64,000 nt of DNA, taken from assembly GCA_913061235.1 (NCBI GenBank), contig CAJXTB010000016.1, positions 1-64,000 of the forward strand, written 5' to 3'. This stretch comes from an uncultured Pseudomonadota bacterium (GTDB taxonomy: Bacteria; Myxococcota_A; UBA796; GCA-2862545). Positions 18,759 through 62,475 of this stretch are shown here, piece after piece. How positions within the stretch are numbered: position 1 is the first letter of the stretch; each line of letters begins with the position of its first letter. Made by a program: the position numbers and the translations under genes. The notes below the pieces were generated by a model. The model ran no database searches. It had not been told where the DNA came from and was given only the letters and a program-made list of their open reading frames with translations.

Positions 18759-19822
18759 AGTACATCGCCAGTTGGCAACGATTGGTCCAGGTGGCGAATC
18801 GGGTGCAGCATGCGCTGAAGTAGAATGCGGGCCGTCTCATTGAGACCGGGTTCTGCGGCGAGAATCGGACTGTCAAAGGTCGCGTTTGACAGGCTGTAGA
18901 TCCGCTCCAGCACCTCTTCCAACGCGCCGGCAAACTGGAAACGTCGGCGCACTTGCTGAACGTCTGCGTCCGTGGTCATGCTGCGTGAGCACGCAAGAAC
19001 TCCGCACAGCCATGAGCCATCTTCCGGGTACTGCTCCAGGTGTTCGACGACGAGCGCGGTAATCTTGCCCTCGCGAATATCCGAGCCCAACGGACGGTTG
19101 TTGCCGTTGCCGAACACGTCCAGGACGTCATCTTGAATCTGAAAGACGAAGCCCAGCCGCTCGAACTCACCCGCGACGGCCCGCGCATCTTTTTCGGACC
19201 GACCCGCAAGTAGGGCAGCACCGTAGACCGGCAGAGCAAACAGCGCCGCTGTCTTGCCACGTGCCGCATGTTCGTAGTCTTTCCAGGTCAATCGCCCAAG
19301 AGATAGCAGCGCCATCTCGAGAGACTGACCGCGGACCGTTCGTGCTGCGTAGCCGGAGAGTGCTCGCGACAGTCGGTAGCGAATGGCGTCGTCTGCTGGG
19401 ATGTGGTCAACAGCCAAACCAGGCAGCATCAGCAACAAGTCGCCCGCGTTGATGGCCTGTGCCACACCGTGTCGGACCCAAGTGGTTGGCATGCCACGAC
19501 GCACTCGGTCACCATCTTGAACATCGTCGTGAATGAGGCTGGCATTGTGCAGCAACTCACAGGCCGCGGCCCAGGCGACAGCGGAGGCGCGGTCCACGTT
19601 CATGAGACGGCACGCGGCCAGAGCAAGCTGGGCGCGAAGACGCTTTCCACCCGTCGACAGATGCTCTACGACCATGGCGCCACAGCGGTCCAGTCGGTCA
19701 CCTGTGGACAGGCGGATCATCAGATCTTCAACATCCTTCAACCCCTCATCCGTGAGCTGGGCCGCAGACGGCAGTCCGTCCGGGTGCGTCAACGGGACCT
19801 GGGTGAGTTCTAGTGACATCAT
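18755..19822 (-). CDS. crtE: Geranylgeranyl diphosphate synthase (polyprenyl synthetase)
   Basis: 355 residues from ATG 19820-19822, which overlaps the lycopene cyclase stop by 4 bp; a longer in-frame start would intrude into crtY. The first Asp-rich motif is IHDDVQDGD with the following RRGMPT, and the second is QIQDDVLDV. Class I trans-prenyl transferases with this layout extend FPP/GPP with IPP. Context next to crtB indicates GGPP as the product. The C-terminal 70 residues are longer than the core family and carry no recognised motif. Confidence 0.9.
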   Translation of the reverse strand: MMSLELTQVPLTHPDGLPSAAQLTDEGLKDVEDLMIRLSTGDRLDRCGAMVVEHLSTGGKRLRAQLALAACRLMNVDRASAVAWAAACELLHNASLIHDDVQDGDRVRRGMPTTWVRHGVAQAINAGDLLLMLPGLAVDHIPADDAIRYRLSRALSGYAARTVRGQSLEMALLSLGRLTWKDYEHAARGKTAALFALPVYGAALLAGRSEKDARAVAGEFERLGFVFQIQDDVLDVFGNGNNRPLGSDIREGKITALVVEHLEQYPEDGSWLCGVLACSRSMTTDADVQQVRRRFQFAGALEEVLERIYSLSNATFDSPILAAEPGLNETARILLQRMLHPIRHLDQSLPTGDVL

Positions 19823-21063
19823 GCGCTCCGACGAGTGCGGGTGAGAGAACGAATTGCGGACACGGCAGTTTTCCACTCGGCTCCGGACCACACCATGCGC
19901 AGACGCAGGCCAGCCGGGCAAGCACCGAAGACAGCGAGCATGACAGCCGCCAGCTCACCGGCGGGCAAGTCACCTTGCAGGTAGGCCACCCAAGACTCGC
20001 GAGGAGTCGAGAAGAAGGCTTCGAAAAACGACCGCGTCTGCTGAGTATCGAGTGTTGTGAGGAACCGGGCACCAAACTGAAACAACTGGTGCGCCAGGAC
20101 TGCATCTTCAGGCCAAAGCTCTGCGTAGGCAATTGCTGAAAGCGCCGCTGATGAACGCCCTTCTGCAAGTCCGTCGGCAAGGGCTTGAGCAAGTGGGCCG
20201 CTCGCCTTCAGTGTTCGACCGAAAGAGTAGCCGGTAGCGGGGTGGACCATTGAAGACGCGGCACCGAACGCAACGACGCGCTGGGTGAAGTCGGGCAGCG
20301 ACACGTCCATTGGAATGCGGACGGTCTCCACGGAGCCACAAATCGGCCCTGTGATGCCGTCCCGTTCCAGGCGCGCATGCAGCCGGCGCGTCAGTTCATC
20401 AAAGTCGCCCTCGTCATCCGAGATCAGCGTTGTTTCTTCAACGAATACGCCGCCTTCCAAGGGCATGGCGTACAAGAAGCTCGGCGCGTCCGTTGCGGAG
20501 TGCACACCCTCGCTTGAGAAGTCCATCAGACGCATGCTGTCGGCTGAGTACGGATGAGCGCCAGAGACCCGCCATCCAACGGCGTACTGAAACAGTGACG
20601 GTGGTGGCCCTTGGTGACGCGTAAACGAGCCGATGCCGGTCGCATCAATGATGAGCTTGGCTCGAGCGGTACCCCCAGAGGTCAATCGCACGGTGCTTCC
20701 AACGTCGTCGTGTTCCACCGAGGTGACGCCGCTGGGATGAATGGTCACGTCGTTCAACTGTAGGACGGAACTGAGGCGCCGAATCGCAGCGACATTGTCG
20801 ATGCGGCAGTAGCCTCGTCCCAGATCGCGCACGTCATCTGTATCGAGTGCGACCTGAGTACCCGGCCACTCAGCAACCGTGCAGCCATCCAGCACGGTTC
20901 CTGCGATCTCGTCGAGCCACGTTCCATATGTGTTCGGCCATCTGAATTGGTCATCGCGTGTCACGATGCCGACTGAGCAACCGCAATTCGCCAGATCTGC
21001 AGCAATGCATAGCCCTGCAGGACCCGACCCAACCACGATAATGTCGGCTATGAAACGATGCAC
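19819..21063 (-). CDS. crtY: Lycopene cyclase (CrtL/CrtY-like FAD enzyme)
   Basis: 414 residues. An N-terminal dinucleotide-binding motif (IIVVGSGPAGLCIAADLA), the cyclase motifs FLYAMPL and VFVEETTL, and HPATGYSFGRTL near the C-terminus identify the lycopene beta/epsilon-cyclase family, nearer the plant/cyanobacterial CrtL form than the heterodimeric CrtYc/Yd form. It converts psi ends to beta rings. With a CrtC-like hydratase in the partner operon, one end may be cyclised and the other hydrated. It is the first gene of the leftward operon, 67 bp from the divergent crtC start. Confidence 0.87.
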   Translation of the reverse strand: MHRFIADIIVVGSGPAGLCIAADLANCGCSVGIVTRDDQFRWPNTYGTWLDEIAGTVLDGCTVAEWPGTQVALDTDDVRDLGRGYCRIDNVAAIRRLSSVLQLNDVTIHPSGVTSVEHDDVGSTVRLTSGGTARAKLIIDATGIGSFTRHQGPPPSLFQYAVGWRVSGAHPYSADSMRLMDFSSEGVHSATDAPSFLYAMPLEGGVFVEETTLISDDEGDFDELTRRLHARLERDGITGPICGSVETVRIPMDVSLPDFTQRVVAFGAASSMVHPATGYSFGRTLKASGPLAQALADGLAEGRSSAALSAIAYAELWPEDAVLAHQLFQFGARFLTTLDTQQTRSFFEAFFSTPRESWVAYLQGDLPAGELAAVMLAVFGACPAGLRLRMVWSGAEWKTAVSAIRSLTRTRRSA

Positions 21064-21130
21064 TCTTCAAACCTTTGCGTATGGCGCAAAGGGTGTGTAT
21101 AGGGTTTGCACGACCTTGGCAATACGAACC
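21064..21130. promoter_or_regulatory. Divergent crt promoter region with inverted repeat, candidate CarH operator
   Basis: This 67-bp gap separates the two carotenoid operons. A perfect 8-bp inverted repeat, CCTTTGCG (21072-21079) and CGCAAAGG (21085-21092), flanks TATGG. A rightward sigma70-like promoter can be drawn with TTGCGT at 21075-21080, a 17-base spacer and TATAGG at 21098-21103. A bound repressor at the repeat would cover the -35. On the minus strand, TATACA near 21101-21096 could be the leftward -10. CarH binding here is inferred from position only. Confidence 0.5.
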
Positions 21131-22219
21131 ATGCTTCATGTTCTCGACCCGAAATTATCGACTACCGAATCCGCTTTGACTCGTTCGGGCAGCTTCGCGT
21201 GGTGGTACGTGGATGCCCTAGACGCCGACCTCAACGGGTTCGTCTGTATATGGTCGTGGGGGCTGCCATTCCTGCCCGGACTGGCTGGCGGACTGCGTGC
21301 AGGCTCCTCGATTCCTGGCGTTTCACGTCCTAGTTTCAACTTGGTGGTCTACGAGCGCGGCGTGCCAAAGCTGTACGTGCTGCAAGAACACGAGCCCAGC
21401 AATGCACAGTGTTTGCAGGAACGGTGGCGGTTCGGACGGACGGTCATCGAACGAACCGGCACAACCATCACCATCAATGTCGACTGCGACGTTCCAGGAT
21501 CGGTTGAACCGCTGCGCGGCTCCGTCACAATCGACGGCCCTGCCTGGACCGAAGTCAAAGGTACAACGCCAGTAAGCGACCGCACTCACGGCTGGTGCCC
21601 TCAGCTCGGTCCATGCCGTGCACAGGGTTTGCTTTCCCACGGCTCTCGCCAGTTCAGCTACGACGGCCCGGCGTACGCCGACAGGAACGCCGGAGACCGC
21701 CCCCTGCATGACCTGGGCATCCGCCGCTGGGTGTGGGGCCGTGCCACCTTCGGAGATGAGACCCGCATTGCGTACGTGCTGTGGCCAGAAGACGGCGGAC
21801 CTCCCACTCCCCTGGCCATTCGGGTTGGAGCAGACGGCGTCGCAGAAGTGACCGAAGGCGTTGTGACAACGGGCTCAGATGGCTGGTCAGCGTGGGGAGA
21901 GAGCACACCGAAGACGCTGTCGCTCGAGGTCGACGGTGAGCCCTTCGTCAGCTTGACCGTTCGCCAGCAAGTCGACAGCAGTCCCTTCTACGCTCGCGCT
22001 GTCGGGCACGGCACGGCTCCAGGGCGGGACACAGTGCCAGCGGTCATCGAGAGCTGCACACCGTCACGCATTGACCCGGGCTGGTTCCGACCGTTGCTGA
22101 ACATGGCCACCCACAACGTGGGAGGCGCCAACTCCATGTGGTTGCCCCTGTTCAACGGACCCCATCAAGGCCGCTGGGGCCGACTGTTTGCCAGCTGGCG
22201 GGGAGTTGGACGGCCATGA
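21131..22219 (+). CDS. crtC: Carotenoid 1,2-hydratase-like protein
   Basis: 362 residues from ATG 21131. Upstream in-frame ATGs lie inside crtY or its promoter and were rejected. The sequence fits the CrtC (hydroxyneurosporene synthase) type: an early FAWWYVDALD segment, WCPQLGPC-like and DRNAGDRPLHDLGIRRWVWGRA (shortened here) central motifs, and a lipocalin-like strand-rich fold. CrtC adds water across the terminal psi-end double bond to give a tertiary hydroxyl that can be glycosylated. It heads the rightward operon and overlaps the glycosyltransferase by 4 bp. Confidence 0.85.
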   Translation: MLHVLDPKLSTTESALTRSGSFAWWYVDALDADLNGFVCIWSWGLPFLPGLAGGLRAGSSIPGVSRPSFNLVVYERGVPKLYVLQEHEPSNAQCLQERWRFGRTVIERTGTTITINVDCDVPGSVEPLRGSVTIDGPAWTEVKGTTPVSDRTHGWCPQLGPCRAQGLLSHGSRQFSYDGPAYADRNAGDRPLHDLGIRRWVWGRATFGDETRIAYVLWPEDGGPPTPLAIRVGADGVAEVTEGVVTTGSDGWSAWGESTPKTLSLEVDGEPFVSLTVRQQVDSSPFYARAVGHGTAPGRDTVPAVIESCTPSRIDPGWFRPLLNMATHNVGGANSMWLPLFNGPHQGRWGRLFASWRGVGRP

Positions 22220-23340
22220 TGACGCTGCTTTGGTGCCTCGCAGCCCCGACCCTGGTCGCTGCCGCAATGGGCGCCATCAACGCATTCACGTGGACACGAG
22301 GCCACGCCACAGGCGACCTTAGTCAGGTGTCTGTGTGCATCCCAGCACGAGACGAAGAAGCCACCATCGAGCCCGTTGTCCGAGCAGCACTCGCTAGCAA
22401 TCCACTCGAAGTGGTGGTGTGCAACGACAACTCGACAGATGCCACGACGGAGCTGCTCGCGGCCATCGGTGCCACCGACCCACGCTTGCGCGTCATCGAC
22501 GCCCCCCCCCTACCTGCCGGTTGGGTCGGAAAGGTGCGTGCGTGCCACTTGCTCACGCGCGAAGCAACGAGCGCCACCCTCATCTTCGTGGATGCCGACA
22601 CCGAGGTTCGTCCCGGCGGCTTGCAGCGAGTCATTCAGCTACTCGACCACCATGACGCGTCCATTGTCACGGCAGTCCCTCGACAGGTCGTGGGGTCGTG
22701 GATGGAGCGCTTGGTCGTGCCGTTGCTTCACGTCACCTACACCAGCTGGCTGCCGCTCGCGCTGGTGTGGGCGAGCAAGAACCCGCGCTTTCTGGCTGCA
22801 AACGGTCAAATCGTAGGCATTCGGCGTTCCGCACTGACCGAGATCGGTGGGTTCGAGGCTATCAAAGACCAAGTCGTGGACGACATGGCCCTGTGCCGCC
22901 GGGCCAAAGAGCACGGGCACCGCGTGGTCTTCGCCGACGGTCACCACATGGCCAACTGCCGTATGTACGACTCGGCCTCACAGGTCTGGGAGGGGTTCTC
23001 CAAGAACATCTTCGAAGGACTCGGCGAGTCCATCATCGCGCTGACCGCCGTGTCTACCTTGTACATCTTGGCCTTTGTCGCCCCGTACGTTCTAGCCATG
23101 GCATCCATCTGGCTTCCCGAGCTGCGACCGGTCGCTGTGACGATGTTGAGCGTGGCTCTACTCTCCCGAATTGCTCTCGCGATTCGCCACAAACACCCCG
23201 TCACGAGCGTGGTCTTCCACCCCTTGGGCGTGCTCGTCCTCATTGCCATCGCCTGGAACTCCATGCGCTGGTCCCGCAGCGGCACCATTCACTGGGCGGG
23301 TCGCACCTACCCACGCTTGTCCTCCCGGGACACACCATGA
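22216..23340 (+). CDS. Family 2 glycosyltransferase, probable carotenoid glycosyltransferase
   Basis: 374 residues. An N-terminal membrane helix is followed by a GT-A domain with VCIPARDEEATIEPVV, VDADTEVRPGG (DxD-type) and the acceptor-loop region FEAIKDQVVDDMALCRR with a catalytic Asp pair. Three or so hydrophobic helices follow near the C-terminus. It resembles CruC/CrtQ-like enzymes that glycosylate hydroxylated carotenoids. Starts at ATG 22216, overlapping crtC, and overlaps the acyltransferase at its 3' end, so the three genes are translationally coupled. The sugar is not readable. Confidence 0.82.
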   Translation: MMTLLWCLAAPTLVAAAMGAINAFTWTRGHATGDLSQVSVCIPARDEEATIEPVVRAALASNPLEVVVCNDNSTDATTELLAAIGATDPRLRVIDAPPLPAGWVGKVRACHLLTREATSATLIFVDADTEVRPGGLQRVIQLLDHHDASIVTAVPRQVVGSWMERLVVPLLHVTYTSWLPLALVWASKNPRFLAANGQIVGIRRSALTEIGGFEAIKDQVVDDMALCRRAKEHGHRVVFADGHHMANCRMYDSASQVWEGFSKNIFEGLGESIIALTAVSTLYILAFVAPYVLAMASIWLPELRPVAVTMLSVALLSRIALAIRHKHPVTSVVFHPLGVLVLIAIAWNSMRWSRSGTIHWAGRTYPRLSSRDTP

Positions 23341-24035
23341 GCATGGACTGGCGTCGCTACGTGGCTGCCCCCTACGGTCGCTACCGAGTCCGCAACGGTC
23401 TCGACGGGCTGCACGTGTTCGGCCTCGACAACGCCCGTGAGGCTCTCGCCCTGGGACCCGTGACCTTCGCGGCCACCCATGTGGCGTGGTGGGACGGCGT
23501 GCTGATGGTGGTGTTGGACGACTTACTCGGCTGTCAGTCCCGATTCGTGATGGATGACACCAACCTCCGTAAGTTTCCCTTCTTCAGGGCTATTGGCGCG
23601 ATTGGCCTGGACCGTTCATCCCCAATGGCCCCGCGACGCGCCCTGCTCACGGCACGAAAGCACCTCAGCGGGCCAAACAACGCGGTGTGGATGTTCCCGC
23701 AAGGCCGCCAGCGTCCGCGTCATGTACGCCCACTCGGGCTGCAGCCAGGCTTGGAGTTCCTTCAGCGAAAAACACGGGGCCACGTGGTTCCGGTCACCTT
23801 GGGCTACGGGTTTCGCGAGTCGCACAAGGCCGCAGCAGTCGTCACCTTTGAGCCGGCAATGACGCCAGGGTTCACACAGTCGATGCTGGAGCACGCACTG
23901 CTTGGGGGCATCGAGCGCGCAGACGGCTTCCTAGACGGCCAGACAGATGGCTTCACCACCGTCATGGGCCAACGCACGGCCATTGTCCATCGTGGCCTCG
24001 GGTCGCGCATTCTTGCGAGGTTGACCCGTGGCTAG
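23337..24035 (+). CDS. PlsC-type acyltransferase, probable carotenoid glycoside acyltransferase
   Basis: 232 residues from ATG 23337. A longer upstream reading is possible but lies wholly inside the glycosyltransferase gene. The HX4D catalytic motif is THVAWWD, followed by the glycerolipid-type block MFPQGRQRP. This is the arrangement of CruD-like enzymes that add a fatty acyl chain to the sugar of a carotenoid glycoside. Position between a carotenoid glycosyltransferase and a desaturase supports that over a phospholipid role. Confidence 0.8.
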   Translation: MSMDWRRYVAAPYGRYRVRNGLDGLHVFGLDNAREALALGPVTFAATHVAWWDGVLMVVLDDLLGCQSRFVMDDTNLRKFPFFRAIGAIGLDRSSPMAPRRALLTARKHLSGPNNAVWMFPQGRQRPRHVRPLGLQPGLEFLQRKTRGHVVPVTLGYGFRESHKAAAVVTFEPAMTPGFTQSMLEHALLGGIERADGFLDGQTDGFTTVMGQRTAIVHRGLGSRILARLTRG

Positions 24036-25479
24036 CGCAGTCGTAGTGGGTGCGGGTATCGGAGGGTTGGCGGCAGCCATGGACCTGCTCGCTCAGGGCG
24101 TGTCGGTGGACGTCTTCGAGGCGCACAGTCGCGTAGGTGGCAAAGCCGGAATCTCCCTGTCCGACGGCGTGGCCTTCGACACCGGGCCTAGCATCCTGAC
24201 CATGCCAGACGTCTTCGACGCGCTGTTCGACCGCTGTGGTGCCACCTTCCGCGAACGCGTCACCCTCGTCGCCCCATCGCCGGTGTTTCGCTATCTGTAC
24301 CCCGATGACGTCGCTGTTGACGTACACCTGGACCTAGATGACACCCTCGCCTCCGTCGCCAGTAGCCTGGGTTCAGACGCACGCGACCAGCTCACCGCCT
24401 TCTTGAAGCAGTCCAAGCGCATCTGGGACATTGCCGGGCCGCAGTTCGTCTACGGCCCCGCTCCAACCGTGGGTCACGTCTTGGGACTCGGGCCCGCGGC
24501 CTGGATTTCCATGACCGGAATCGACGCCCACCGGACCATGCTTGGAGCCATACGCAAGACGGTCAAAGACAAGCATCTGCAGTGGTTATTGGCTCGATAC
24601 GCCACCTACAATGGGTCGGACCCGCGAACGGCTCCAGCAACGCTCAACTGTATTGCCTGGGTAGAGCTGGGCCTCGGCGGTTTCGGTGTCTCTGGCGGCA
24701 TGCACGCCCTCGCACTGGCCATGGCGCAGGTGATTCGAGAGCGAGGTGGACGCATTCATTTGGACTCTCCCGTCGCCCAAGTCCTCACGGACAACCGGAG
24801 AGCGGTCGGCGTTCGCGTGCACGAGACCGACCACCACGCAGACGCCGTGGTCATCAACGCAGACGTCGCCCACCTCATCGCGGACTTGCTACCCGGCCGT
24901 CTGCCCACGCCAAAGACCGAGCGGTCCACGTCTGGTTTCACCGCCGTTGTGCGCAGTCGTGCTCGCTCGGACCGCGCGGCTCACACCGTGGTCTTTCCGC
25001 ATGACTACGACGCCGAGTTTGCCGACATGTTCGACGCCCGGCGGCCGCCTGCTGCCCCCACCGTCTACGCATGCGCCCAGTCGACCGCCCACGAGCGCCC
25101 GGGGTGGGACGACGCCGAACCCGTCTTTCTGATGGCCAACGCACCCGCAACAGACGACGACGTGGACTACAGCGCTCTGCGCGAACAGGTCTTGTCACGA
25201 GCCATCGCTGCGGGCCTGGTCTCAGCAGACGAACCTGTCGTGTGGGAGCGCACACCCACCGACCTCGCAGCGCAGTACCCGCGCACCGGTGGCGCTATCT
25301 ACGGAGCTGCATCCACCGACCGCTTCGCCGCGTTCCGTCGACCCAACAATCGAACGTCCGTACCCGGACTGTTCGTCGCATCGGGCTCGGCCCATCCTGG
25401 CGGCGGCGTGCCGTTGTGCGCCCTGTCCGGTGTGCAGGCGGCAAAACAGGTACTTCGCGACCTGGCCAAACCGCGTTAG
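24028..25479 (+). CDS. CrtI/CrtD-family carotenoid desaturase
   Basis: 483 residues with a GTG start overlapping the previous gene by 8 bp. The FAD motif is VVVGAGIGGLAAAMDLLAQG, with FDTGPSILTMP following, and the C-terminal GLFVASGSAHPGGGVPLC block is the bacterial phytoene-desaturase signature. It could be the phytoene desaturase or the 3,4-desaturase CrtD that acts after CrtC. Location beside crtC favours CrtD, but it is the only desaturase visible here, so a dual role or an unlinked crtI must be considered. Confidence 0.88.
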   Translation: MASAVVVGAGIGGLAAAMDLLAQGVSVDVFEAHSRVGGKAGISLSDGVAFDTGPSILTMPDVFDALFDRCGATFRERVTLVAPSPVFRYLYPDDVAVDVHLDLDDTLASVASSLGSDARDQLTAFLKQSKRIWDIAGPQFVYGPAPTVGHVLGLGPAAWISMTGIDAHRTMLGAIRKTVKDKHLQWLLARYATYNGSDPRTAPATLNCIAWVELGLGGFGVSGGMHALALAMAQVIRERGGRIHLDSPVAQVLTDNRRAVGVRVHETDHHADAVVINADVAHLIADLLPGRLPTPKTERSTSGFTAVVRSRARSDRAAHTVVFPHDYDAEFADMFDARRPPAAPTVYACAQSTAHERPGWDDAEPVFLMANAPATDDDVDYSALREQVLSRAIAAGLVSADEPVVWERTPTDLAAQYPRTGGAIYGAASTDRFAAFRRPNNRTSVPGLFVASGSAHPGGGVPLCALSGVQAAKQVLRDLAKPR

Positions 25480-26448: not shown

Positions 26449-27351
26449 TCAGCGAGCCACTTCTAGGCGAATCGCTTGCAGCTGAACCGTCTGATTGCTG
26501 TCCCACGCAGTGACGCGCACACGGGCAAACCGCTCGCCGTCGCTAGCGAGAACGGCTCCAGACTGTGCGACCGCCTGAAAACAGTCGTCATTCGACACAG
26601 ATGCCTCGTCCGGACCTGTACAGAGGGTGACGGTGTGTCCCGAGTCCGGCCCGCTGCTCACGAATGCGTGTGCGGCGGCCCAGCGACCGTCACCGTCGAA
26701 CGACAGTATTGGAGAGGTGTAGACACCGTAATGCCGCCCGCCAGTAGCATAGCCGCCGTCCTCGTCTACCAAGCCCGGGGCGGGTGTGATGGTGCCCCCC
26801 GCAGCGACCTCAGCGCCATCTAGGCGAATACGACCGACGCCACCGGGTCCGCCAGTTCCACCACCACCGACCTCGCTCCCTCCGGCACCGCCATTGGCAC
26901 GAATGGTTCCCGAGAGGTTGAGCTGCCGGGCGCGCAGATGGATGGACCCACCTGAGCCACCACCACCGCCGCCGTTGTTGCTGATTGTGGCGTTTCCGCC
27001 CCGCGCGCCATCGGCCAGCACTTGCCCGGTCACCACGAGGGCGTCGGCTTGAATACGAATGGCGCCTCCGCCATTTCCGCCGTGCCCCCCACGGCCCAAG
27101 TGGTCTTCATCTGAGCCCGACGCACCGCCACCACTGCCTAAGTACAGAACCGACAGCTCGGCATCTCCGTAGGGCTGGCCACCCGTGGCGTCCAGGGAGG
27201 CGTTGCGAGGGCAATCGCGTGTGACACCGGCACCCGCATATCCACCACCGCCGCCAGCACACCCGTAGTTCCCGGCATCGTACAGGCCGCCGCCGCCGCC
27301 GCCGACCACGTTGCTGCCGCTGATCTCACCGCCTGCTCGGTACCAGCCCAA
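26449..27351 (-). CDS. Glycine-rich surface protein, 3' part downstream of an in-frame stop
   Basis: From TTG 27349-27351 this reads 300 residues, but it is in the same frame as the 5' part and separated only by the TAA at 27388-27390 plus 12 codons. It probably encodes the C-terminal half of one protein. Gly-rich low-complexity runs (GGGGGG, GGAGGS) alternate with short strand motifs such as AIRIQADALVVTGQVLADG and SIHLRARQLNLSGTIRANG, a beta-helix-like surface fold. The C-terminal part (from about SPILSFDGDG on) is a normal folded domain. Whether this half is translated separately from the weak TTG, by readthrough, or not at all is open. Confidence 0.6.
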   Translation of the reverse strand: MGWYRAGGEISGSNVVGGGGGGLYDAGNYGCAGGGGGYAGAGVTRDCPRNASLDATGGQPYGDAELSVLYLGSGGGASGSDEDHLGRGGHGGNGGGAIRIQADALVVTGQVLADGARGGNATISNNGGGGGGSGGSIHLRARQLNLSGTIRANGGAGGSEVGGGGTGGPGGVGRIRLDGAEVAAGGTITPAPGLVDEDGGYATGGRHYGVYTSPILSFDGDGRWAAAHAFVSSGPDSGHTVTLCTGPDEASVSNDDCFQAVAQSGAVLASDGERFARVRVTAWDSNQTVQLQAIRLEVAR

Positions 27352-29433: not shown

Positions 29434-29570
29434 GTCGTCTCTCCACGCGAGCGCCCCGCTCTGATCGTTGGACGCAATGCCAGTACATCCGCCCTGCCAC
29501 GGGGTCCAACCACAATCGCTGTAGTCGTACTTGGAAAGTGATCTAAGGTGATTTGTCGCAAGGAGAAACA

Positions 29571-30038
29571 GTGTCGTTGAGCCGTGCCGAACGCGAAGGT
29601 CTCGAGGTTGCAGGGTTCGCCCTGGCCGAAGGCATTGTGCGTGCAACACGGGCCACCCAGCTCGGCGCTGCGTTGGTGGTTCGTCATGGCAACGACATGC
29701 AGTGCATCCCGCTGGACGCGACCGCCGACCCCATGACCCGCGTCACCGCCATGCTTCAGACCGTAGGCAGCGGCGTGGCGGACGCTGCACTCCTAGAAGA
29801 ACAGGTCCATGGCGGACAGCGAACCATCCAGGTCTCCGCCTGGGTAGACGGCGAGTGGCGCTGCCAAATCGCTCTGCCATTCAGCGCCGGACAACCGCTT
29901 CATGTGCGACCCGAGCGCCTCATTGGCGACTGGCCGGTCACAGCGGACGTCGGACAAGCCCTGGATGCGGTGTACTCGGGTGTGTCCAACCACCCCGACG
30001 GCCTTCGCGCCTGGGTGAATGCCGTGGTGGACGTCTAG
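29571..30038 (+). CDS. Protein of unknown function
   Basis: 155 residues from GTG 29571, which has AAGGAG at 29560-29565. No signal peptide or membrane helix; the composition is that of a soluble alpha/beta protein. Motifs such as GAALVVRHGND and QVSAWVDGEWRCQIALPF are not recognised. It converges with the giant pseudokinase gene, ending 3 bp from its stop. The 137-bp gap before it holds no other gene. Confidence 0.65.
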   Translation: MSLSRAEREGLEVAGFALAEGIVRATRATQLGAALVVRHGNDMQCIPLDATADPMTRVTAMLQTVGSGVADAALLEEQVHGGQRTIQVSAWVDGEWRCQIALPFSAGQPLHVRPERLIGDWPVTADVGQALDAVYSGVSNHPDGLRAWVNAVVDV

Positions 30039-30041
30039 CCG

Positions 30042-33000
30042 CTACTCGTCGTCTCTACGAGACTTGCGTAGCCGAGCACGCAGTGCTTCCCGCTTCTTTC
30101 GACGGGCTTCCGCCGCTGCATCACCGGCTGGCGGTGCAGGACGGGCTGCACGTGGCACAGCCTTGGCTTCGGTTCCAAAGGACTCGCGACGCGGTGCCGC
30201 CAACTTCTCGGCCGGTGGGTCTTGGCGTGACGCGGCGGCATCACGAACGGGTGAGTCTCCCCCCGCGCGACGTTTCTCCATGCGCTCAGACCGACTCTTC
30301 GCAGGTCCCCCTGCGCGCAACGACTGACGCAACCGAGCCAGCCGGTCTTCACCACTGCCAGCAGCAGGCTCCGGAGGACTGCGACGCGGTGGGGGGGCTG
30401 GCGTGTTGAGGGGCCGCGGAGCCGGCGGTGGTGCCGCAGCTGTACGTGGGGACGGCGGCGTTGGACTCGACGATGTCTCACTGTTGTAGGTGCGACTGCG
30501 CGCGTGGCGCTCACGGGTTTCACGCGTTGGCCGTGGTGCGCCGCCAGAGGCTTCCAGACGGCTGCGTAGACGGTCAGCCCGGCTGCTTCCACTGCTGCGA
30601 CGGGGAAGACGACGACGCTCGTTCACGGCGGCCTCTGCGGCCTTGCGTGCAGCGTCTTCACGGGCGCGGTCAATGGCTTCGCGGCCCTTACGGTCCAACT
30701 CGAGGGACCTAGCCAACGCGGCAATGGCAGAATCCAACGCGCTAGCAGCTTGGTCGGCCATGTCAGAAGCCAGGAGTGGACGGTCCACTTCACTCACCTC
30801 TAGCGACAAGCCGAGGGCCTTTGCAGCGGCGTTCTCAGCGTCGTCCACCACCCGTTCAAGGTCGGCCAGCGTCTGCTGAACCGCAGGCCCGACGTCGTCC
30901 AGATCACTCGCCGTGCTCTGAAGAGCTTCGAGGGTGTCACGGCAGCCGGTTGCGGCTTCTTGCGCAGACACCGCTGCATCGGACACATCACTCTGCGCTC
31001 TGTCGATGGCGGCCACATGGGCCTGGCGTTGAGTGATGGCTGCACGCGCAGCTTCCATGCGCTGAGTGGCTTCGCCAAGGGCTGCAATCGTTGCGTCCGT
31101 GCCCAAGCGAATCAGGTCGGCAAGGTCCAATACGGCATCAAGGTCCTGTGCTGCAGCCAGTCCCTCGCCAACGCGAACCGTGTCGCCTGCACGCACCCGA
31201 ACGTCATCCGCGGCAGACTTCAGCGCTGCTAGCGCCGCTTGAATCGCGGGACTGTCGACACTCGCGGCATCCTTCTCCGCAGCAGTCACAAATCCCTGCG
31301 CTCTGGCGACCGAGGCACGCGCCTGGGACAGTGGATGACGGGCATCTGAGCGGGCTTCTTCCAGGCGACGGTCCGCTTCTGCGCGCTCTTCGTCCATTCG
31401 ACGGTTTGCGTCTGCCAAGATCTCACTGACAGAGGCGGCGACCTCTTCTGCGCGTTCGGCAGACAGACGTGCCGCACGAACAATCGGCTCTGCAGCGGCA
31501 AGTTCCGCCACCAGAGCGACCATCGGTCCTGCGGCAGCCGCCTTCTTCGCCGCTTTTTCCGCGAGTGCTACGGCAGCCTGCGCTCGCTGGGCGACTTCGC
31601 GCGTGGACGCACGTTCGGCCAACTCAACCAAGTGAGCGACCTCGCTGGCGCGCACACGGGTCACTTCAACCGCTGCCCGCGCACGGCCTCCCAGGGTAGC
31701 AACCTCTTCGCGGACCGTCTGCAGAGCACTGGCCTCTTCAACGGCTCGGCGTGCGCTGTCGACCGCAAGCTCGACCGCTCCGGTCAGGTCCGCCGCGCAG
31801 GTCTCGGCCAGCTCGATGAGGGGCTGGACCTCAGGAGCCAGCAGCTCGGGGTCGTCATGAGTCAACCGCTCGACCAGGTCTGCGAGGCGTTCATAGGCCG
31901 CGCCAACCCGCATGGCTCCGCGACGTGCCGCGGCGAACCGGTCCAGAGCGTCGTCTGAGTCGGCGCGGGTGACTTCTTCGCGAGCGCCCTCAATGGCCGC
32001 GTCCACACGTTCGCGAATCTCACTCGCCCGGTCAAAACCGCCTTGAACCACGCGAACAGCATCATCACGTCGCCGCTTCGCATCACTGGCGCGCGACTGT
32101 GCTTCGTCTTCAGCAGCGGCCACCACAGTCTCGGACAGCTCACCGGCCTCGAGGGTCAGCGCTTCGAGTTCATCGCTCGCAGCCCGTGCTTGATTCGCGA
32201 GCGGCTCTGCCGCGACACGTGTGCTCGCACTGGCAACACCATCTGCTAAGAGCTGGAACTCGGGTCCGAGCGACTCGGCACGCATGACCATCACTTCCAG
32301 CCGGCGAATCCCGTCCGAGATGGACGCTCCTCGAGCGGCGAACGGAATGATCTCGCGTTGGGTCGAAGAGAGTAGGCCACGCAGCGTGTCTGTATGTGCC
32401 GCGACCTGGGTCCGACAGCGCCCCACCGTCTCGCGGGCCTCGGTCAATGCATCCGACTCGGTTCGCGCAGAGGTCAACGCCGCCTGAAGCGCACCGGAAG
32501 CGCCATCGAGTCGCTGTAGTAGCTGCTCCACACGGGCCGCAGCCTCATGGGTGGTTCCCATGGCCGACTCGACGACAGAAGCGGCTCCAGCTCCTTCGGC
32601 CGCGCGGCGAGCCCCCATTGTTCGCTGCACTTGAGCGGCGAACTCCGGCCCGAGACCTTCGAGCGCGGACATGGCCATCTGCGTATCTGGCGTGTTCCAC
32701 CCACGGGCTTCGTGACGCGCGGCGGTCATGACCTCGGTCCACTTGCGCTGTGCATCTGCAACCGTGGTCTCAAAGCCGGTCAGACGCTCTAGCGCCGACG
32801 TGCGACGTTGGACGTCTTCATCAAGCGCTGCTGTCGCCTTGGCCATAGCCGAGTGCGCTGCTGGAATGTCTTCAGCAATGCGCTCACGGAACGAGCGCGC
32901 CGTGTCGGCATACCGAGCGGCCTCATCTGCATGAGCTTGGGTCTTGGCCTGCCGTGCGGCGTCGCGGGCTTCAGACGCCTGATACGCCGCAATATCGATG

Positions 33001-35606
33001 ATCTCAGCGGCGACATCCCGCAGTCGAGTCGCTTCGAGGTGTCCACCATCCACCACGCGTGCGGACAGGGTGGCCAGCTCTTCTTGTGCGCTGGTCACTT
33101 GCGCCGAACAGAGCTTGGCGCTCTTTTGGGCCTCACTCACAGCATCGGTCAGGGCTTGAGCAGCCTGGCGCTCACGGCGCAGCTCAGCGAGCTCTCGGTT
33201 GCACGCCTCACGCGCACGCCGGGCCAAGTCGAGCACTTGGTCGGCCGAACCACTGACTTCCGCGGCACTGGACCGAGCAGAACTCAAGGCTTGCTGTGCG
33301 TCTTCGACGGTCGAGGCGACGGCAACACGGGCGGCATGCCCCCGCGCTTCTACACCCGCTCGCTGAAGCTCCGACCACGCTTGGCTGGCTTGGCGAATGG
33401 CGGTCCGTGCGCCGCCGCCCTGCACCTCTTTCGTGTCTTCCAGAAGCTGGTCCATGACCTGACGAACGCGAGCGGTCGCCGCATCTGACTGCTCCACCGC
33501 CTTAGCGGCATCCTGGCGGGCGGCATCTCGACGCGCCAGTGCTTCGGCTGCAAGCCGAGTCGCTGTGATGGCCTGCTCTACGCGTTCGCCACCGAGAACA
33601 AGCTGCGCATCGACGCGCCCCAGACACAAGCGGGCCTGCTGGGCGGCTGCCAGCGCATCCGTCTCATTGTCAGATGCGCGTGCGTCGCTGACTGCGGCCG
33701 CACAGGCGTCGCGCTCACCCATGAGGATGTCCACAATCGCAGACGCCCGACCAATAGCGGCCGTCGCTTCGTCTGTCGGACTGACGGCATTGGCGCTCTG
33801 GGCGCTCTCTAGACGGTCCGTGAGCCGAGTGAGCCGCTCTTCGAGAGTACGGTGAGACCGCTCAGCGGCATCCACGGCTTCGAGCCGCGCTCGGTCGACA
33901 TCTGCGCGCAGAGTGTCGAGCAAGGAACTTGCAGCGGTGCCAGCAGATTCAGCAGCATTGGCGGCATCACGCAGGCGCAGAAGCGCGGCATCTGCTACCT
34001 CAGCGAGCGTTGCCGAAGCCAGGACCGAGGCCGCTTCTTCCGCGACACGCAAGGCACGCTCTGCCCGCTGACGCAGGTCATCCAGTCCTTGCTGCCCCGC
34101 TCCCGTAGGCAGCTTGTCCGACGCCATCTCCGAGCGGACCGCATCCGCAATTCGAGCCACCGCCCGGACACCAGAACGCGCGCGAGACACGGCTTCCGGC
34201 GCTTCACTACGGGCTTCTTCCACCCGCTCCATCTCGCCAGCGATCCGATGGGCCGAACGTCGAATGTCGGTCAGCGCGTCGACCGCTGCGGCCAGCGCAA
34301 CGTCCGCTTGACGAGCAGCGCCGTGTACGAGGGTCAAGGTGATCTGAGCTTCCGCCGCAGACTCGTCCATGTCCACCAGATTCGACGCACCGCGTGCCGA
34401 GTCACGCGCCTTCTCCGCCCTACGCGCAGCCGACGTTGCCCGGTCGATGTCCGCTGCCGATTCGAGTCCGAGGTCTCGGCCTTCGTTGCGGCACATCTCG
34501 GCCAGCTCGGCGGCCAAGGCGGCCACACGGCCTGCACGCTCAACGACATCCGTGGCATGGGTCTGAACGCTCTGAAGCGTCATCTCACCGGCCAACGGCT
34601 CGACCGCCTCTACAATCCCCAAGACTTGGGTGGGTGCAGGGTCAAACACATCGTCATCGTCATCGAGCTCGACCTCAACAACGACAACCTCAACGGCCGC
34701 ATCGTCGTCCAAGGGAAGCTCTGGGACGTCTTCTTCAATCGGCACATCGTCCGGCGACAGCGACTTCAAGGCCGTACGAACAGCTTGCCCGAGGCCCGGT
34801 CCTTCAAGCGCTCCAAGACCATCGAGTGCCCGAAGGAACTCAGACCCGCGGCGGTAGCGGTCGGACGGCGTTCGTGAGGTGGCACGCGCCAAGATGACCA
34901 CAAGTTCTGGCGGATATCCCTCGCCCAGCTCAGCCATGGCCACTGGGCCTTCGCCACGGTGGATTTGCTCCAGGACCTCTTCCGCATCGCCCACGTAGGC
35001 GTGGTGACCAGTCAGCACTTCCACCGCTACCAGGCACAGCGCCATCAGGTCGCTCGACAATTCCTCAGCAGCATTGTCGATGACTTCGGGTGCGGTGTAG
35101 CGGAGCGCGTCACCGGGCAGCTTGACCGCGTCATCGTCTAGGAATCCGTAGATGTCTACGCGCGGCATGGCGTAGCCCAACACCTGAACGGCACCGTCAC
35201 CGTCGACCAAAACGGTCCAGGGCGTCACAGCACCGTGAGCGTACACACCGACACGAGCGCCCATACGAGAGGCACGAATCAGCACCTCACCAACGCGGCG
35301 CAGGAACTCGGCGCAGGCGCGCGGCCCACAGGTGTTGCCAGCGGCCTTGAGGGTGTCCACCACCTCTCGAACCGAGAATCCAGGGTGCACTTTGTAGTTG
35401 AAGGCGCCCTGCTGGACCTCACCGAACAGCCCAGCCAGACCCGGAATGTTGGGCTGACGTAGCCATACATCGGCGTCCCCGAAGCCTCTACGCAGCTCCG
35501 CATGCGCTCGGAACGTCTTGTGAAACCAGACGGTAGCGGTGCCTGCGGCATCGTCCAGCAGCAGGTCAAACCCAGGTCCGGTGACGGTTCGCTGTCCTTG
35601 CCCCAC
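30042..35606 (-). CDS. Giant pseudokinase-like protein with very long coiled coil
   Basis: 1854 residues, GTG start at 35606 with AGGAG upstream. Residues 1-290 resemble a protein kinase but lack catalysis: the VxxK Lys may be K30, HRD is H124-G-A126, and DFG is replaced by G144-Y-A, while the APE motif (172-174) remains. An acidic linker (about 290-340, Asp/Glu/Val-rich) leads to about 1350 residues of Ala/Glu/Arg/Asp heptads, predicted coiled coil. The last about 160 residues are basic and Pro/Ser/Arg-rich (with RRSSGSSRADRLRSRLEASG, and ending KKREALRARLRKSRRDDE). No membrane segment is seen. A cytoskeletal or organising scaffold with a ligand-binding pseudokinase head is the likeliest reading, which is inference. 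Confidence 0.83.
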   Translation of the reverse strand: MGQGQRTVTGPGFDLLLDDAAGTATVWFHKTFRAHAELRRGFGDADVWLRQPNIPGLAGLFGEVQQGAFNYKVHPGFSVREVVDTLKAAGNTCGPRACAEFLRRVGEVLIRASRMGARVGVYAHGAVTPWTVLVDGDGAVQVLGYAMPRVDIYGFLDDDAVKLPGDALRYTAPEVIDNAAEELSSDLMALCLVAVEVLTGHHAYVGDAEEVLEQIHRGEGPVAMAELGEGYPPELVVILARATSRTPSDRYRRGSEFLRALDGLGALEGPGLGQAVRTALKSLSPDDVPIEEDVPELPLDDDAAVEVVVVEVELDDDDDVFDPAPTQVLGIVEAVEPLAGEMTLQSVQTHATDVVERAGRVAALAAELAEMCRNEGRDLGLESAADIDRATSAARRAEKARDSARGASNLVDMDESAAEAQITLTLVHGAARQADVALAAAVDALTDIRRSAHRIAGEMERVEEARSEAPEAVSRARSGVRAVARIADAVRSEMASDKLPTGAGQQGLDDLRQRAERALRVAEEAASVLASATLAEVADAALLRLRDAANAAESAGTAASSLLDTLRADVDRARLEAVDAAERSHRTLEERLTRLTDRLESAQSANAVSPTDEATAAIGRASAIVDILMGERDACAAAVSDARASDNETDALAAAQQARLCLGRVDAQLVLGGERVEQAITATRLAAEALARRDAARQDAAKAVEQSDAATARVRQVMDQLLEDTKEVQGGGARTAIRQASQAWSELQRAGVEARGHAARVAVASTVEDAQQALSSARSSAAEVSGSADQVLDLARRAREACNRELAELRRERQAAQALTDAVSEAQKSAKLCSAQVTSAQEELATLSARVVDGGHLEATRLRDVAAEIIDIAAYQASEARDAARQAKTQAHADEAARYADTARSFRERIAEDIPAAHSAMAKATAALDEDVQRRTSALERLTGFETTVADAQRKWTEVMTAARHEARGWNTPDTQMAMSALEGLGPEFAAQVQRTMGARRAAEGAGAASVVESAMGTTHEAAARVEQLLQRLDGASGALQAALTSARTESDALTEARETVGRCRTQVAAHTDTLRGLLSSTQREIIPFAARGASISDGIRRLEVMVMRAESLGPEFQLLADGVASASTRVAAEPLANQARAASDELEALTLEAGELSETVVAAAEDEAQSRASDAKRRRDDAVRVVQGGFDRASEIRERVDAAIEGAREEVTRADSDDALDRFAAARRGAMRVGAAYERLADLVERLTHDDPELLAPEVQPLIELAETCAADLTGAVELAVDSARRAVEEASALQTVREEVATLGGRARAAVEVTRVRASEVAHLVELAERASTREVAQRAQAAVALAEKAAKKAAAAGPMVALVAELAAAEPIVRAARLSAERAEEVAASVSEILADANRRMDEERAEADRRLEEARSDARHPLSQARASVARAQGFVTAAEKDAASVDSPAIQAALAALKSAADDVRVRAGDTVRVGEGLAAAQDLDAVLDLADLIRLGTDATIAALGEATQRMEAARAAITQRQAHVAAIDRAQSDVSDAAVSAQEAATGCRDTLEALQSTASDLDDVGPAVQQTLADLERVVDDAENAAAKALGLSLEVSEVDRPLLASDMADQAASALDSAIAALARSLELDRKGREAIDRAREDAARKAAEAAVNERRRLPRRSSGSSRADRLRSRLEASGGAPRPTRETRERHARSRTYNSETSSSPTPPSPRTAAAPPPAPRPLNTPAPPPRRSPPEPAAGSGEDRLARLRQSLRAGGPAKSRSERMEKRRAGGDSPVRDAAASRQDPPAEKLAAPRRESFGTEAKAVPRAARPAPPAGDAAAEARRKKREALRARLRKSRRDDE

Positions 35607-35626
35607 GTGATCGACTCCTGTGACCG

Positions 35627-59248: not shown

Positions 59249-62146
59249 TCAGTCCGTTGGCCACACGCCATAGGGACCGCCGGTACTTCCAACGTTCGAG
59301 CGCGACCCATCGACATCGGTCATGGCTGGGTCCCCGGCGTCACGTAGTGGCGAGCTGCTGATCAAGCCAAAGTCCCACACGCGCGCGTTCGAGCTGAACA
59401 CATTTCGGTATCCAGGTTCGGACGTCGTCATGCCGTCACCGAAGCTGCTCTGCTGGACATTGGTGTAGTCCACCGTGCCGTTCGAGAAGCTGTTGGTGTA
59501 GCTCAACATCGGAGCCCATGAGGATGCACTCCACATCGCACCGCCACTCTCGTCCGAGCCGCAGACAGCCATGTTGTCGTAAAAGGTAGAGTTGCGAACC
59601 GTCACATTGACTCCGTTCGGGTCGCTCACCCCAATGGCCCCTCCGCCGCAGACCGAGCCCTCGGTTCCAATGGCGCGGTTCCCCACAAAGTCCACGTTGT
59701 TCACGGTCAGCGTACCCGACGACACCTCGATGGCCCCGCCGGTGGCCGCGACACCGTTGGCTTCGTTATCTCCAAAGCGCCCGCCATTGATAGTGACGGT
59801 ACTACTCCGAATCTTCAGTACGCCGCCGCCGCCGCGGTTGTTGGTATTTCCAATCGCCGTCAGACGGATGAACTCCACGTCGGAGCCCCCGTCGATGAGA
59901 ATTGTGCCGCCCGATATCGAGCTGACATTGCCGACACTGTCGAAGACCGAGAGATCTTCGAGGAGAACGTCGCAGCCGTTGAGTCGCATCACGGTGCCCA
60001 CGCCTGTGGTGCCCGAGACGCCGGGCTCGGCCATGATGTTGTCGAAGGTCAGACCGTGTGCAGAACCGGTCCAGCTTGTGGCCTTGATGCCGGCAGTCAC
60101 CGTGCGGCTCGCGCTGCCAGTACGCGATGCGGAGATGTTGTCGAACACCACATCCTCAAGAACCGCCCCGCTGTTCTGGATGCCTGCACCGGAGAAGTGG
60201 TCGCTGCTCGATGCGTGGAAGTCGGTGAAGCGCACATCGCGAATGACCGGACTCGCCCCTGAGATGTGCAAGATGCCCTTGTCACCCGAGCTCTGGCCGT
60301 CGATGCCCCGGAAAGTCATGTAGGCGAGCAGTGAGCTGGCGTTCTCACCATCCACGAACCTGGGACCAACCGTGCTCTGCACAATGACGCTGTCGCGGTC
60401 TACGCCCATCATGCGCAGGCTCTTGCCATCAAAGTCGATAGTGTCGTCGTAGGTGCCCGCGTCTACGCAGATGAGGTCACCAAACCGAGCATCGGTCAAC
60501 GCGGCGCTCGGCAGGCTGTAGGGATGCCCATCGCCAACCCAAAGAGCGACCTCTGGGACGCCATCGCAGTCGTCGTCAATAAAGTTGCACAGCTCTGGTG
60601 CTGTTGGATTTCGGGTAGGGTCGCTGTCGTCGCAGTCGAGGGGACGGTCGACGGTACCTGGAGGTTGGTCGCACGCAATGATGACCTCCAGAGGGTCACC
60701 AAATCCGTCACCGTCCAGGTCAACGAACCACTCATCGCCTTCGTCAAGGTTGTCATCAACAAAGCCGTTGCAGTCGTCATCAATGCCGTTGCAGATGTCC
60801 AGGGCGTCCGGGTTGATGGTGAACTCAGTGTCATCGCAGTCGTCCGCGACGTGAGTGCTTGTGGCGTCTGGCGGGTCGCACTGGACCGCAGCGGTGGCGA
60901 AGTCTCCAAACCCATCTTCATCAACGTCTGCGTACCAGGTGGGTGGGTCCTCATCGACCAGACCGTCGCAGTCATTGTCCAGGTCATCACAGACTTCCTC
61001 CGCGCCCGGGTAGACACTGTTGTTGCTGTCCAGGCAGTCGTCCGCTTCGGCGATGTAGTTGCTGCCCGGAGCTTCGCAGGCGAGCACGACCGTTGCGGGG
61101 TCACCGTAGTCATCGGCGTCGGCGTCCACGTACCAGGCTGTCGCGTCAATGGCGTCGTCGTCTACAAGTTCGTTGCAGTCGTCGTCTACGCCGTTGCACA
61201 GCTCGTCGGCACCCGGGTAGACGGTCGTTTCGGTGTCATCGCAGTCTGTGGCATCGGCCACGTGTCCCTCTGGCGCCTCACACGCGACCACGGCCTCGCC
61301 GGCTCCGAAGCTATCAATATCGGTATCGGCAAACCAAGAGGGCGCATCGTTGTCGATGATGCCGTCGCAGTCGTTGTCCACGCCGTCACACAGGTCCTCC
61401 GCTCCGGGGAAGGTGTCGGGGTTGTCGTCGTCACAGTCGTCTTCGGCCAGAATGCCGTCGTTGTCATTGTCCACAACGACGGTGATGAAGGCTTCGGCGT
61501 AGCCCTCAGAGCCGAACCGGTCCCGAACGGTGATGCCTGCGGTATACGCCGCGGCGTCCAGCTCGGAGAGAGTCACCCCCATGGTGCCATCGGAGTTGAA
61601 CTGGGTCGGCAGCGTAAACGCATCCGCGAGAGTGCCGGACCACTCCACGGTCAGGTCCCCCGGTGTGTCACGGTCATCGCTGGCAATGAGCGTCATTCGG
61701 TAGTCGTCTAGGGTGCGAACGAGCACGATGTCTGTGGTTGCAGGCGCGGTAAATGCGACGAGCGGGGCATCATTGGGGACGGCGCTGACGACGACGCTGT
61801 CTTCGGCATTTTCACCCTCTTCATCTGCGACGATAGCCGTGAGTGTGTGCGCGCCAGCAGACAGTCCAAGGTCCATCATCATGGACGCTTCTCCGCCGGT
61901 CCACAACCACTCGCCATCAATCGGGCCGTCTCGGTCGGACGTCCACGACAAGACGAGGTCTTCGTTTGCCGTTTCCCGGTCTCCAGCGATTACGACAAGC
62001 GTAAATGGCTGGTTTGCTGCGACCTCTGTGTCCGCCGTTGGGTACGAAATCGTGATCTCGGGAGCCTGATTGGGAAGCTCATTAATGGGCGTTTCGTTCT
62101 TGCAAGCAAAGAGCGACAGGGCGAACAGAACGGAGATGGGGCGCAT
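59249..62146 (-). CDS. Surface lipoprotein with MopE-like metal-binding repeats and beta-helix
   Basis: 965 residues from ATG 62144-62146, with GAGG upstream; further upstream in-frame starts lack support. Lipobox SLFAC puts the lipid Cys at residue 15. Residues 27-225 are two Ig/PKD-like strand domains (ITISYPTADTEV, VAFTAPATTDIV). Residues 226-531 hold five putative metal-binding repeats (DCDD...PGA.ELC.GVDNDCDG type). Residues about 535-965 form a right-handed beta-helix with polymorphic-membrane-protein-like repeats such as GGGVLKIRSSTVTINGG and GGAIEVSSGTLTVNNVDF. Likely an outer-membrane surface protein binding Ca2+ or Cu; the metal is unknown. It converges on the lipase. Confidence 0.9.
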   Translation of the reverse strand: MRPISVLFALSLFACKNETPINELPNQAPEITISYPTADTEVAANQPFTLVVIAGDRETANEDLVLSWTSDRDGPIDGEWLWTGGEASMMMDLGLSAGAHTLTAIVADEEGENAEDSVVVSAVPNDAPLVAFTAPATTDIVLVRTLDDYRMTLIASDDRDTPGDLTVEWSGTLADAFTLPTQFNSDGTMGVTLSELDAAAYTAGITVRDRFGSEGYAEAFITVVVDNDNDGILAEDDCDDDNPDTFPGAEDLCDGVDNDCDGIIDNDAPSWFADTDIDSFGAGEAVVACEAPEGHVADATDCDDTETTVYPGADELCNGVDDDCNELVDDDAIDATAWYVDADADDYGDPATVVLACEAPGSNYIAEADDCLDSNNSVYPGAEEVCDDLDNDCDGLVDEDPPTWYADVDEDGFGDFATAAVQCDPPDATSTHVADDCDDTEFTINPDALDICNGIDDDCNGFVDDNLDEGDEWFVDLDGDGFGDPLEVIIACDQPPGTVDRPLDCDDSDPTRNPTAPELCNFIDDDCDGVPEVALWVGDGHPYSLPSAALTDARFGDLICVDAGTYDDTIDFDGKSLRMMGVDRDSVIVQSTVGPRFVDGENASSLLAYMTFRGIDGQSSGDKGILHISGASPVIRDVRFTDFHASSSDHFSGAGIQNSGAVLEDVVFDNISASRTGSASRTVTAGIKATSWTGSAHGLTFDNIMAEPGVSGTTGVGTVMRLNGCDVLLEDLSVFDSVGNVSSISGGTILIDGGSDVEFIRLTAIGNTNNRGGGGVLKIRSSTVTINGGRFGDNEANGVAATGGAIEVSSGTLTVNNVDFVGNRAIGTEGSVCGGGAIGVSDPNGVNVTVRNSTFYDNMAVCGSDESGGAMWSASSWAPMLSYTNSFSNGTVDYTNVQQSSFGDGMTTSEPGYRNVFSSNARVWDFGLISSSPLRDAGDPAMTDVDGSRSNVGSTGGPYGVWPTD
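60554..61471 (-). repeat. Five MopE-like repeats inside the surface lipoprotein gene
   Basis: This stretch encodes residues 226-531 of the lipoprotein. Each unit of about 60-70 residues has a DxDGFGD-like Ca turn, a DCDD/DCLD segment, NP/YPGA and C(D/N)GxD(N/D)DC(D/N)GxVD. Five units are clear; the fifth is degenerate (NFIDDDCDGVPEV). The base composition (Gac/Gtc/tgc-rich) leaves a long open reading on the plus strand, which is a shadow. Confidence 0.85.
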
Positions 62147-62475
62147 GGAAATCCTCGACACCTGAGACAACAAATGTGGGTGAACTGTACCGCAAAAACG
62201 AGCCGAATGACCACGTAGAATACATGCAACCATGCTCCAAGTAGGCACATTCCAGGCCCGACCTGCCGATAGTGTTTGACCGCCCTACATAGCCGTGAGG
62301 GGTACTGCCTGGCATTACTCGCGCCGGCCGCTCACACTCCCACCCCAGTCACGTTCCAATGCAGGGCTACAGCGCAGCCCCGCATAAATCTGCAGAGGTA
62401 CCGCTGTTGTGACCGAATGCAATCACGGGTCATCCACAGTGGTGAGCCACGCCGCCACGAGTCCCTAAGGACACG
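62147..62475. other. Non-coding gap upstream of surface lipoprotein
   Basis: This 329-bp stretch lies between the end of the beta-helix-like gene at 62476 and the start of the lipoprotein at 62146, all on the minus strand. No gene, tRNA or repeat is seen. Only the ribosome site GAGG near 62155 and a possible -10 TATTCT (minus strand, about 62217-62222) are visible, without a clear -35. Confidence 0.5.

Follow-up and report, generated by a model that had tools for sequence, protein, structure and literature searches.

The window analysed here is a stretch of 64,000 nucleotides from an uncultured bacterium (assembly GCA_913061235.1, contig CAJXTB010000016.1). On its minus strand, positions 30042-35606 hold an uninterrupted reading frame of 1854 codons that begins with GTG and has its stop codon at 30042-30044; a Shine-Dalgarno sequence (AGGAG, 35615-35619, minus strand) lies 8 nt before the start. 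The encoded 1854-aa protein divides into a pseudokinase head (residues 1-265, 34812-35606), an acidic linker that from its composition is probably flexible (residues 284-337, 34596-34757), a helical rod predicted to hold about 11 repeats of ~119 aa (residues 338-1640, 30687-34595) and a basic tail, by composition probably disordered (residues 1641-1854, 30045-30686), all on the minus strand. The gene is more than a chance reading frame, as its head matches PknB and StkP and takes a kinase fold in AlphaFold2 (AF2) prediction, and orthologues with the identical head-then-rod order are present in other genomes. No curated family covers the protein, with no Pfam match past the cut-off and no NCBIfam match. 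In a hydropathy scan, no segment reached the hydrophobicity of a membrane helix or signal peptide (the highest 19-residue value, 1.55, lies within the kinase fold), and thus the sequence makes a cytosolic location most likely.

The neighbours of the rod gene in the window are housekeeping-like: a putative zinc peptidase, a 161-aa ORF, a dihydrouridine synthase and a radical SAM protein. The 161-aa ORF (29553-30038) is convergent with the rod gene and is without a Pfam match, as is a 300-aa glycine-rich ORF at 26449-27351. Elsewhere in the window are carotenoid-type genes (19819-25479), encoding lycopene cyclase, an amino-oxidase/desaturase-like protein and an acyltransferase, and a gene for a 999-aa protein with five MopE putative metal-binding motifs (59249-62248). 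No neighbours are common to rod genes across genomes, except for one protein in a congeneric genome pair. A protein of ~390 aa that by eye resembles a cytosolic M14 carboxypeptidase adjoins the rod gene in G002 and G014 (L044 and L049), and one of the same type, again by eye, lies near a paralogous head copy of the window's own genome (class A, L058; see below).

The head (residues 1 to ~265) matches PknB in sequence searches with an E value of 1e-9, and a profile built from 13 heads of the family matches StkP, PknA and PknB in hmmsearch, StkP being the best match (E 4e-16). AF2 predicts a kinase fold for the head from a shallow alignment of nine sequences (pLDDT 90, pTM 0.91), and in Foldseek the model places PknA and Stk1 on top (E about 1e-11). 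The head therefore combines STK homology with the predicted bilobal fold of STK-type protein kinases. However, all three residues of an active Ser/Thr kinase are missing from it: the HRD and DFG Asps are lost, as HRDxxxxN is replaced by HGAVTPWT and DFG by GYA, and the beta-3 slot has no Lys. The first-pass annotation had called the head a catalytically dead kinase, and both the motifs and the predicted fold bear this out. The dead loop, HGxLTPWR plus GY(G/A), is itself conserved across the 42 heads of the family, with Arg in the Asn slot of HRDxxxxN in 40/42 and Gly in the DFG Asp slot also in 40/42, and Asp is kept at the HRD position in just five. Since the replacement motifs are conserved, the head is, judged from these alignments, a member of a conserved pseudokinase family rather than a decayed kinase. 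With all three catalytic motifs changed, nucleotide binding by the window head is unlikely, and the suggestion that it reads a ligand finds no support. In a tree of the heads, that of the window is on a long branch (1.6) with unresolved placement (61/65).

Seven bacterial families that include pseudokinases are listed in a 2025 review: ActPs1-3, GLW, CP1, DYD and DLHK (PMC12599244). Their pseudokinases, too, are of the STK type and conserved in bacteria, with motifs that have diverged. The signature of the present family (HGxLTPWR plus GY(G/A), no beta-3 Lys) is unlike the motifs that the review quotes, none of which matches it when compared by eye. The text of the review mentions neither Myxococcota nor coiled coils, and a literature search for bacterial pseudokinases with coiled coils in connection with Myxococcota or polarity found none. 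The family defined here is also named by none of the curated libraries searched.

At E 1e-40, the head is found in 46 of 379 genomes of the phylum, all 46 of them within the window's order. On this sequence evidence, the head represents an undescribed pseudokinase family that is restricted to the order. At the same threshold, carriers in other families of the order have a single head copy, often near contractile-injection-system genes; in the copies inspected, the head is followed by a linker that varies and a C-terminal domain in two parts. Within the window's family, many genomes hold 3 to 7 copies. The window's own genome has four (the window gene and those denoted C1, C20 and C3). The rod is narrower in distribution, and is found in 8/63 genomes of the order: six, including the window's own, carry close orthologues that are full or truncated by contig ends, and two carry distant or partial ones. 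A distant, headless rod paralogue (L092) spans 1259 residues of the rod profile. The named relatives are all MAGs, and their records are mostly labelled Deltaproteobacteria or Proteobacteria. The first-pass annotation knew of no described system with this build. This holds in so far as no curated family or review motif matches; however, the protein is not a one-off, given the several head copies in many genomes of the family and the eight genomes with a rod.

Other combinations of the head were also seen. Two head proteins (L062 in G010 and L064 in G019) have rods of 1900-2100 residues with turns every 74 residues, a different repeat architecture, and in another (L068, G019:C58) the same head is fused, as judged by eye, to a winged-helix plus ATPase/TPR-type regulator. 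An apparently headless orthologue, L083, was rejected as biology. In its genome, the contig that carries the head (L040, G007:C747) ends in a (GAGCCG/GAGCCC)n repeat, and the rod contig (L083/L095, G007:C131) starts with secE and has a different reading start. Thus, its headlessness is probably a misassembly, a chimera in which a secE-linked start was joined to the rod gene at the EP-encoding repeat, and the missing head is not used as evidence.

The rod had been described in the first-pass annotation as about 1350 residues of Ala-rich coiled coil. The composition and heptad signal are real: Ala makes up 24% of residues ~338-1640, and the hydrophobic periodicity of 3.5 residues is about three times that of shuffled sequences, features that make the rod read as a coiled coil. 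However, it also has turns at intervals of ~120 residues, which spectrin-like repeats fit better. In the orthologue alignment, turn-propensity autocorrelation, which is independent of any structural model, peaks at 120 and 238, its value of 0.349 exceeding the 0.262 that marks the 99.8% level of block shuffles. Each full-length orthologue taken alone has its top turn peak at 118-123, although in the window sequence alone this peak is under the shuffle threshold (0.154 vs 0.200). Self-similarity of the rod profile peaks at 119-121, above the 99% null. The C-terminal part of the rod, beyond the region modelled below, also peaks at 120 (p 0.038). With 1303 residues at 119 per unit, about 11 repeats are expected.

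Residues 341-1140 (32187-34586, minus strand) were modelled with AF2 from a shallow alignment of six sequences (pLDDT 87.7, pTM 0.35). In the model, long helices of 74-88 residues (417-495, 535-608, 648-724, 767-854, 893-967 and 1009-1089) alternate with short ones of 28-33 (503-530, 612-644, 731-762, 857-889, 973-1004 and 1094-1126), with a spacing of about 118. Tandem units with a shared long helix and a short middle helix, the layout of spectrin-like rods, are thus predicted by the model, and two sequence tests give a period of 119-120, within the 99-122 aa of such repeats. Structural comparisons gave less specific results. VIA-align superposes ~118-residue blocks of the model on helical bundles at 2-3 A with Z 8-9.7, which is below the level trusted for helical bundles and can be given by common helical arrangements, and neither spectrin nor EzrA is among the 50 matches listed. 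Foldseek with the rod model returned no significant solved match, the best being vinculin (E 0.018), and the rod profile matches mostly designed bundles and long helices among solved structures. No Spectrin match is found among Pfam matches to the protein up to E 1. EzrA (PF06160) does not match the protein in the Pfam scan either, nor anything in the window's own genome at E 0.001.

The rod is about 1305 residues long, and full-length orthologues keep this length within about 1% at identities of 23-28%: L044, L066 and L083 have lost no more than 8 residues and gained no more than 13. Length conserved in this way while the sequence diverges would be expected of a spacer. It would also suit an ordinary long two-stranded coiled coil, forming a dimeric scaffold like those of the ROCK kinases or FrzS/AglZ in which length or the ends set function. 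Tether length conserved in spite of sequence divergence has been argued to matter for ROCK2 (PMC4686654), and the pseudo-receiver of FrzS functions without phosphorylation (PMC1974792). The strong 3.5-residue periodicity is in keeping with this explanation as well. However, in every full-length orthologue turns recur regularly at ~120-residue intervals, which favours helical-bundle repeats over one continuous two-stranded coil, and the model shows locally bundled helices of alternating length. A plain coiled coil therefore appears somewhat unlikely, and the rod is probably made of spectrin/EzrA-like helical repeats, going by the model and the sequence periodicity.

The tail, described earlier as basic, is indeed Arg/Pro-rich, with 21% Arg and a net charge of +25 over residues 1641-1854. 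It carries three copies of an LRxRLR-type motif on the minus strand: LRSRLE (residues 1680-1685, 30552-30569), LRQSLR (residues 1759-1764, 30315-30332) and LRARLR (residues 1842-1847, 30066-30083), the last of which stops seven residues short of the C-terminus. A C-terminal version of the motif ends four rod proteins (window, L044, L083 and L094). Copy numbers are 3 in the window, L044, L058 and L074, 5 in L083 and 6 in L063+, against fewer than 0.1 in shuffled tails. The motif is absent from four of eleven tails (L061, L065, L063-minus and L060), and as the pattern was also written after inspection of the tails, the enrichment is descriptive.

The head copy that looks ancestral is class A, and it belongs to a conserved gene group whose other members are a lytic transglycosylase-like protein (PF01464 in 8/8 of these neighbours), a small protein and a Ser/Thr kinase that is intact, with HRD, DFG and VAIK present. 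In about ten loci, including one of the window's own genome, class A is close to contractile-injection-type genes, namely Baseplate_J/TIGR02243, Tail_P2_I/TIGR02242, a CIS13-like protein and a YukD-containing protein. Examples of the group, often near such baseplate genes, are L058 (G000:C1:110000-128000), L052, L043 and L042. The C-terminus of class A gives a weak YukD-like match (E 0.017). An FHA domain guessed by eye in a class A neighbour of ~550 aa was dropped, as Pfam and PDB searches found none, and a literature search for Myxococcota injection systems that combine kinase and FHA returned nothing relevant.

These loci raise the question of whether the rod protein is a satellite of a contractile injection pathway that tethers or positions the machine or its kinase, which would be compatible with the tether reading developed below. 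The C1 paralogue of the same genome (L058) shares the kind of head and the tail motif, and sits with the baseplate-type genes, the lytic transglycosylase-like gene and the intact kinase. However, contractile injection genes accompany class A only, with none among the scanned neighbours in the window and none seen adjoining rod orthologues, and the rod occurs in eight genomes only, the class A paralogue in many more. Such a satellite role is thus considered unlikely.

An organiser of the nucleoid or of a ribonucleoprotein, binding nucleic acid through the basic tail, would agree with the charge and Arg content of that region. This appears improbable, as the tail motifs are spaced amphipathic LRxRLR units and not diffuse charge, and Pfam recognises no nucleic-acid-binding domain in the protein. 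A decaying, functionless kinase gene with a low-complexity extension would account for the long branch and lost catalytic residues of the window head, but is very hard to reconcile with 1854 open codons, rod positions and length conserved across genera at 23-28% identity, and dead motifs conserved family-wide.

The reading preferred here, with a probability of roughly 0.55, is that of a giant cytosolic bacterial tether, with a docking pseudokinase head, a spectrin/EzrA-like rod of ~11 repeats and a multivalent motif tail. The non-catalytic head would serve to dock whichever protein the heads of this order-specific pseudokinase family recognise. The rod, predicted from model and periodicity as about 11 tandem three-helix repeats of ~119 residues that share continuous helices, would keep head and tail at a roughly fixed distance, which we estimate at ~55 nm if each repeat adds ~5 nm as in spectrins (PMC4243239). 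The repeated LRxRLR motifs may anchor multivalently to a second partner or surface common to the paralogues. The protein would then work as a bacterial spectrin or ruler scaffold, with which the scaffold role proposed in the first-pass annotation fits. The cytoskeletal or polarity function also suggested there is conjectural. Against the tether reading stand the headless rod paralogue (L092), the lack of conserved neighbours of the rod gene and the paralogue tails without the motif. More tentatively, and at less than even odds, these proteins could be a second, unrelated lineage of bacterial spectrins, with ~11-repeat rods, a pseudokinase docking head and LRxRLR anchors, acting within the cell as a ruler or skeleton connected to signalling, by way of a pathway that serves a contractile injection system in the paralogues. 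If so, this second, independent and larger case would imply that spectrin-type rods are used more widely by bacteria, and would connect a dead kinase with a fixed-length tether, and possibly with an envelope-spanning machine, in a way that can be tested.

Spectrin-like rods are, to our knowledge, almost unknown in bacteria. The authors of the EzrA study (2014) knew of no other bacterial protein of serial spectrin-like repeats (PMC4243239). Like the predicted rod, EzrA is a cytosolic rod of tandem ~100-residue helical repeats joined by long helices, sequence similarity between repeats is not needed, and EzrA itself is without meaningful sequence homology to spectrins (PMC4243239). However, EzrA has 5 repeats behind an N-terminal membrane helix and binds FtsZ (PMC4243239), whereas the rod protein has about 11 predicted repeats of ~119 aa between its pseudokinase head and motif-bearing tail, and lacks both the membrane helix and the PF06160 match. 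Eukaryotic spectrin and alpha-actinin rods have repeats of 99-122 aa (PMC4243239) and alternating long and short helices, and the predicted rod fits both; it differs in that no Pfam Spectrin match or actin-binding domain is recognised and its fold is a prediction. For the head, PknA, PknB and StkP are the bacterial Ser/Thr kinases with which it shares fold and sequence ancestry, all three catalytic motifs having been lost in the window head. ROCK2 similarly joins a kinase-fold head to a very long helical tether whose length is proposed to set function (PMC4686654), although ROCK is an active kinase with a two-stranded coil and is eukaryotic. In FrzS of Myxococcus, a degenerate signalling head likewise serves for recognition within a larger scaffold protein, but this head has a receiver fold rather than a kinase fold, and the role of FrzS in polar motility was shown experimentally (PMC1974792). 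Neither ROCK2 nor FrzS is a relative of the rod protein; they illustrate that long tethers (PMC4686654) and dead signalling heads (PMC1974792) can work in this way.
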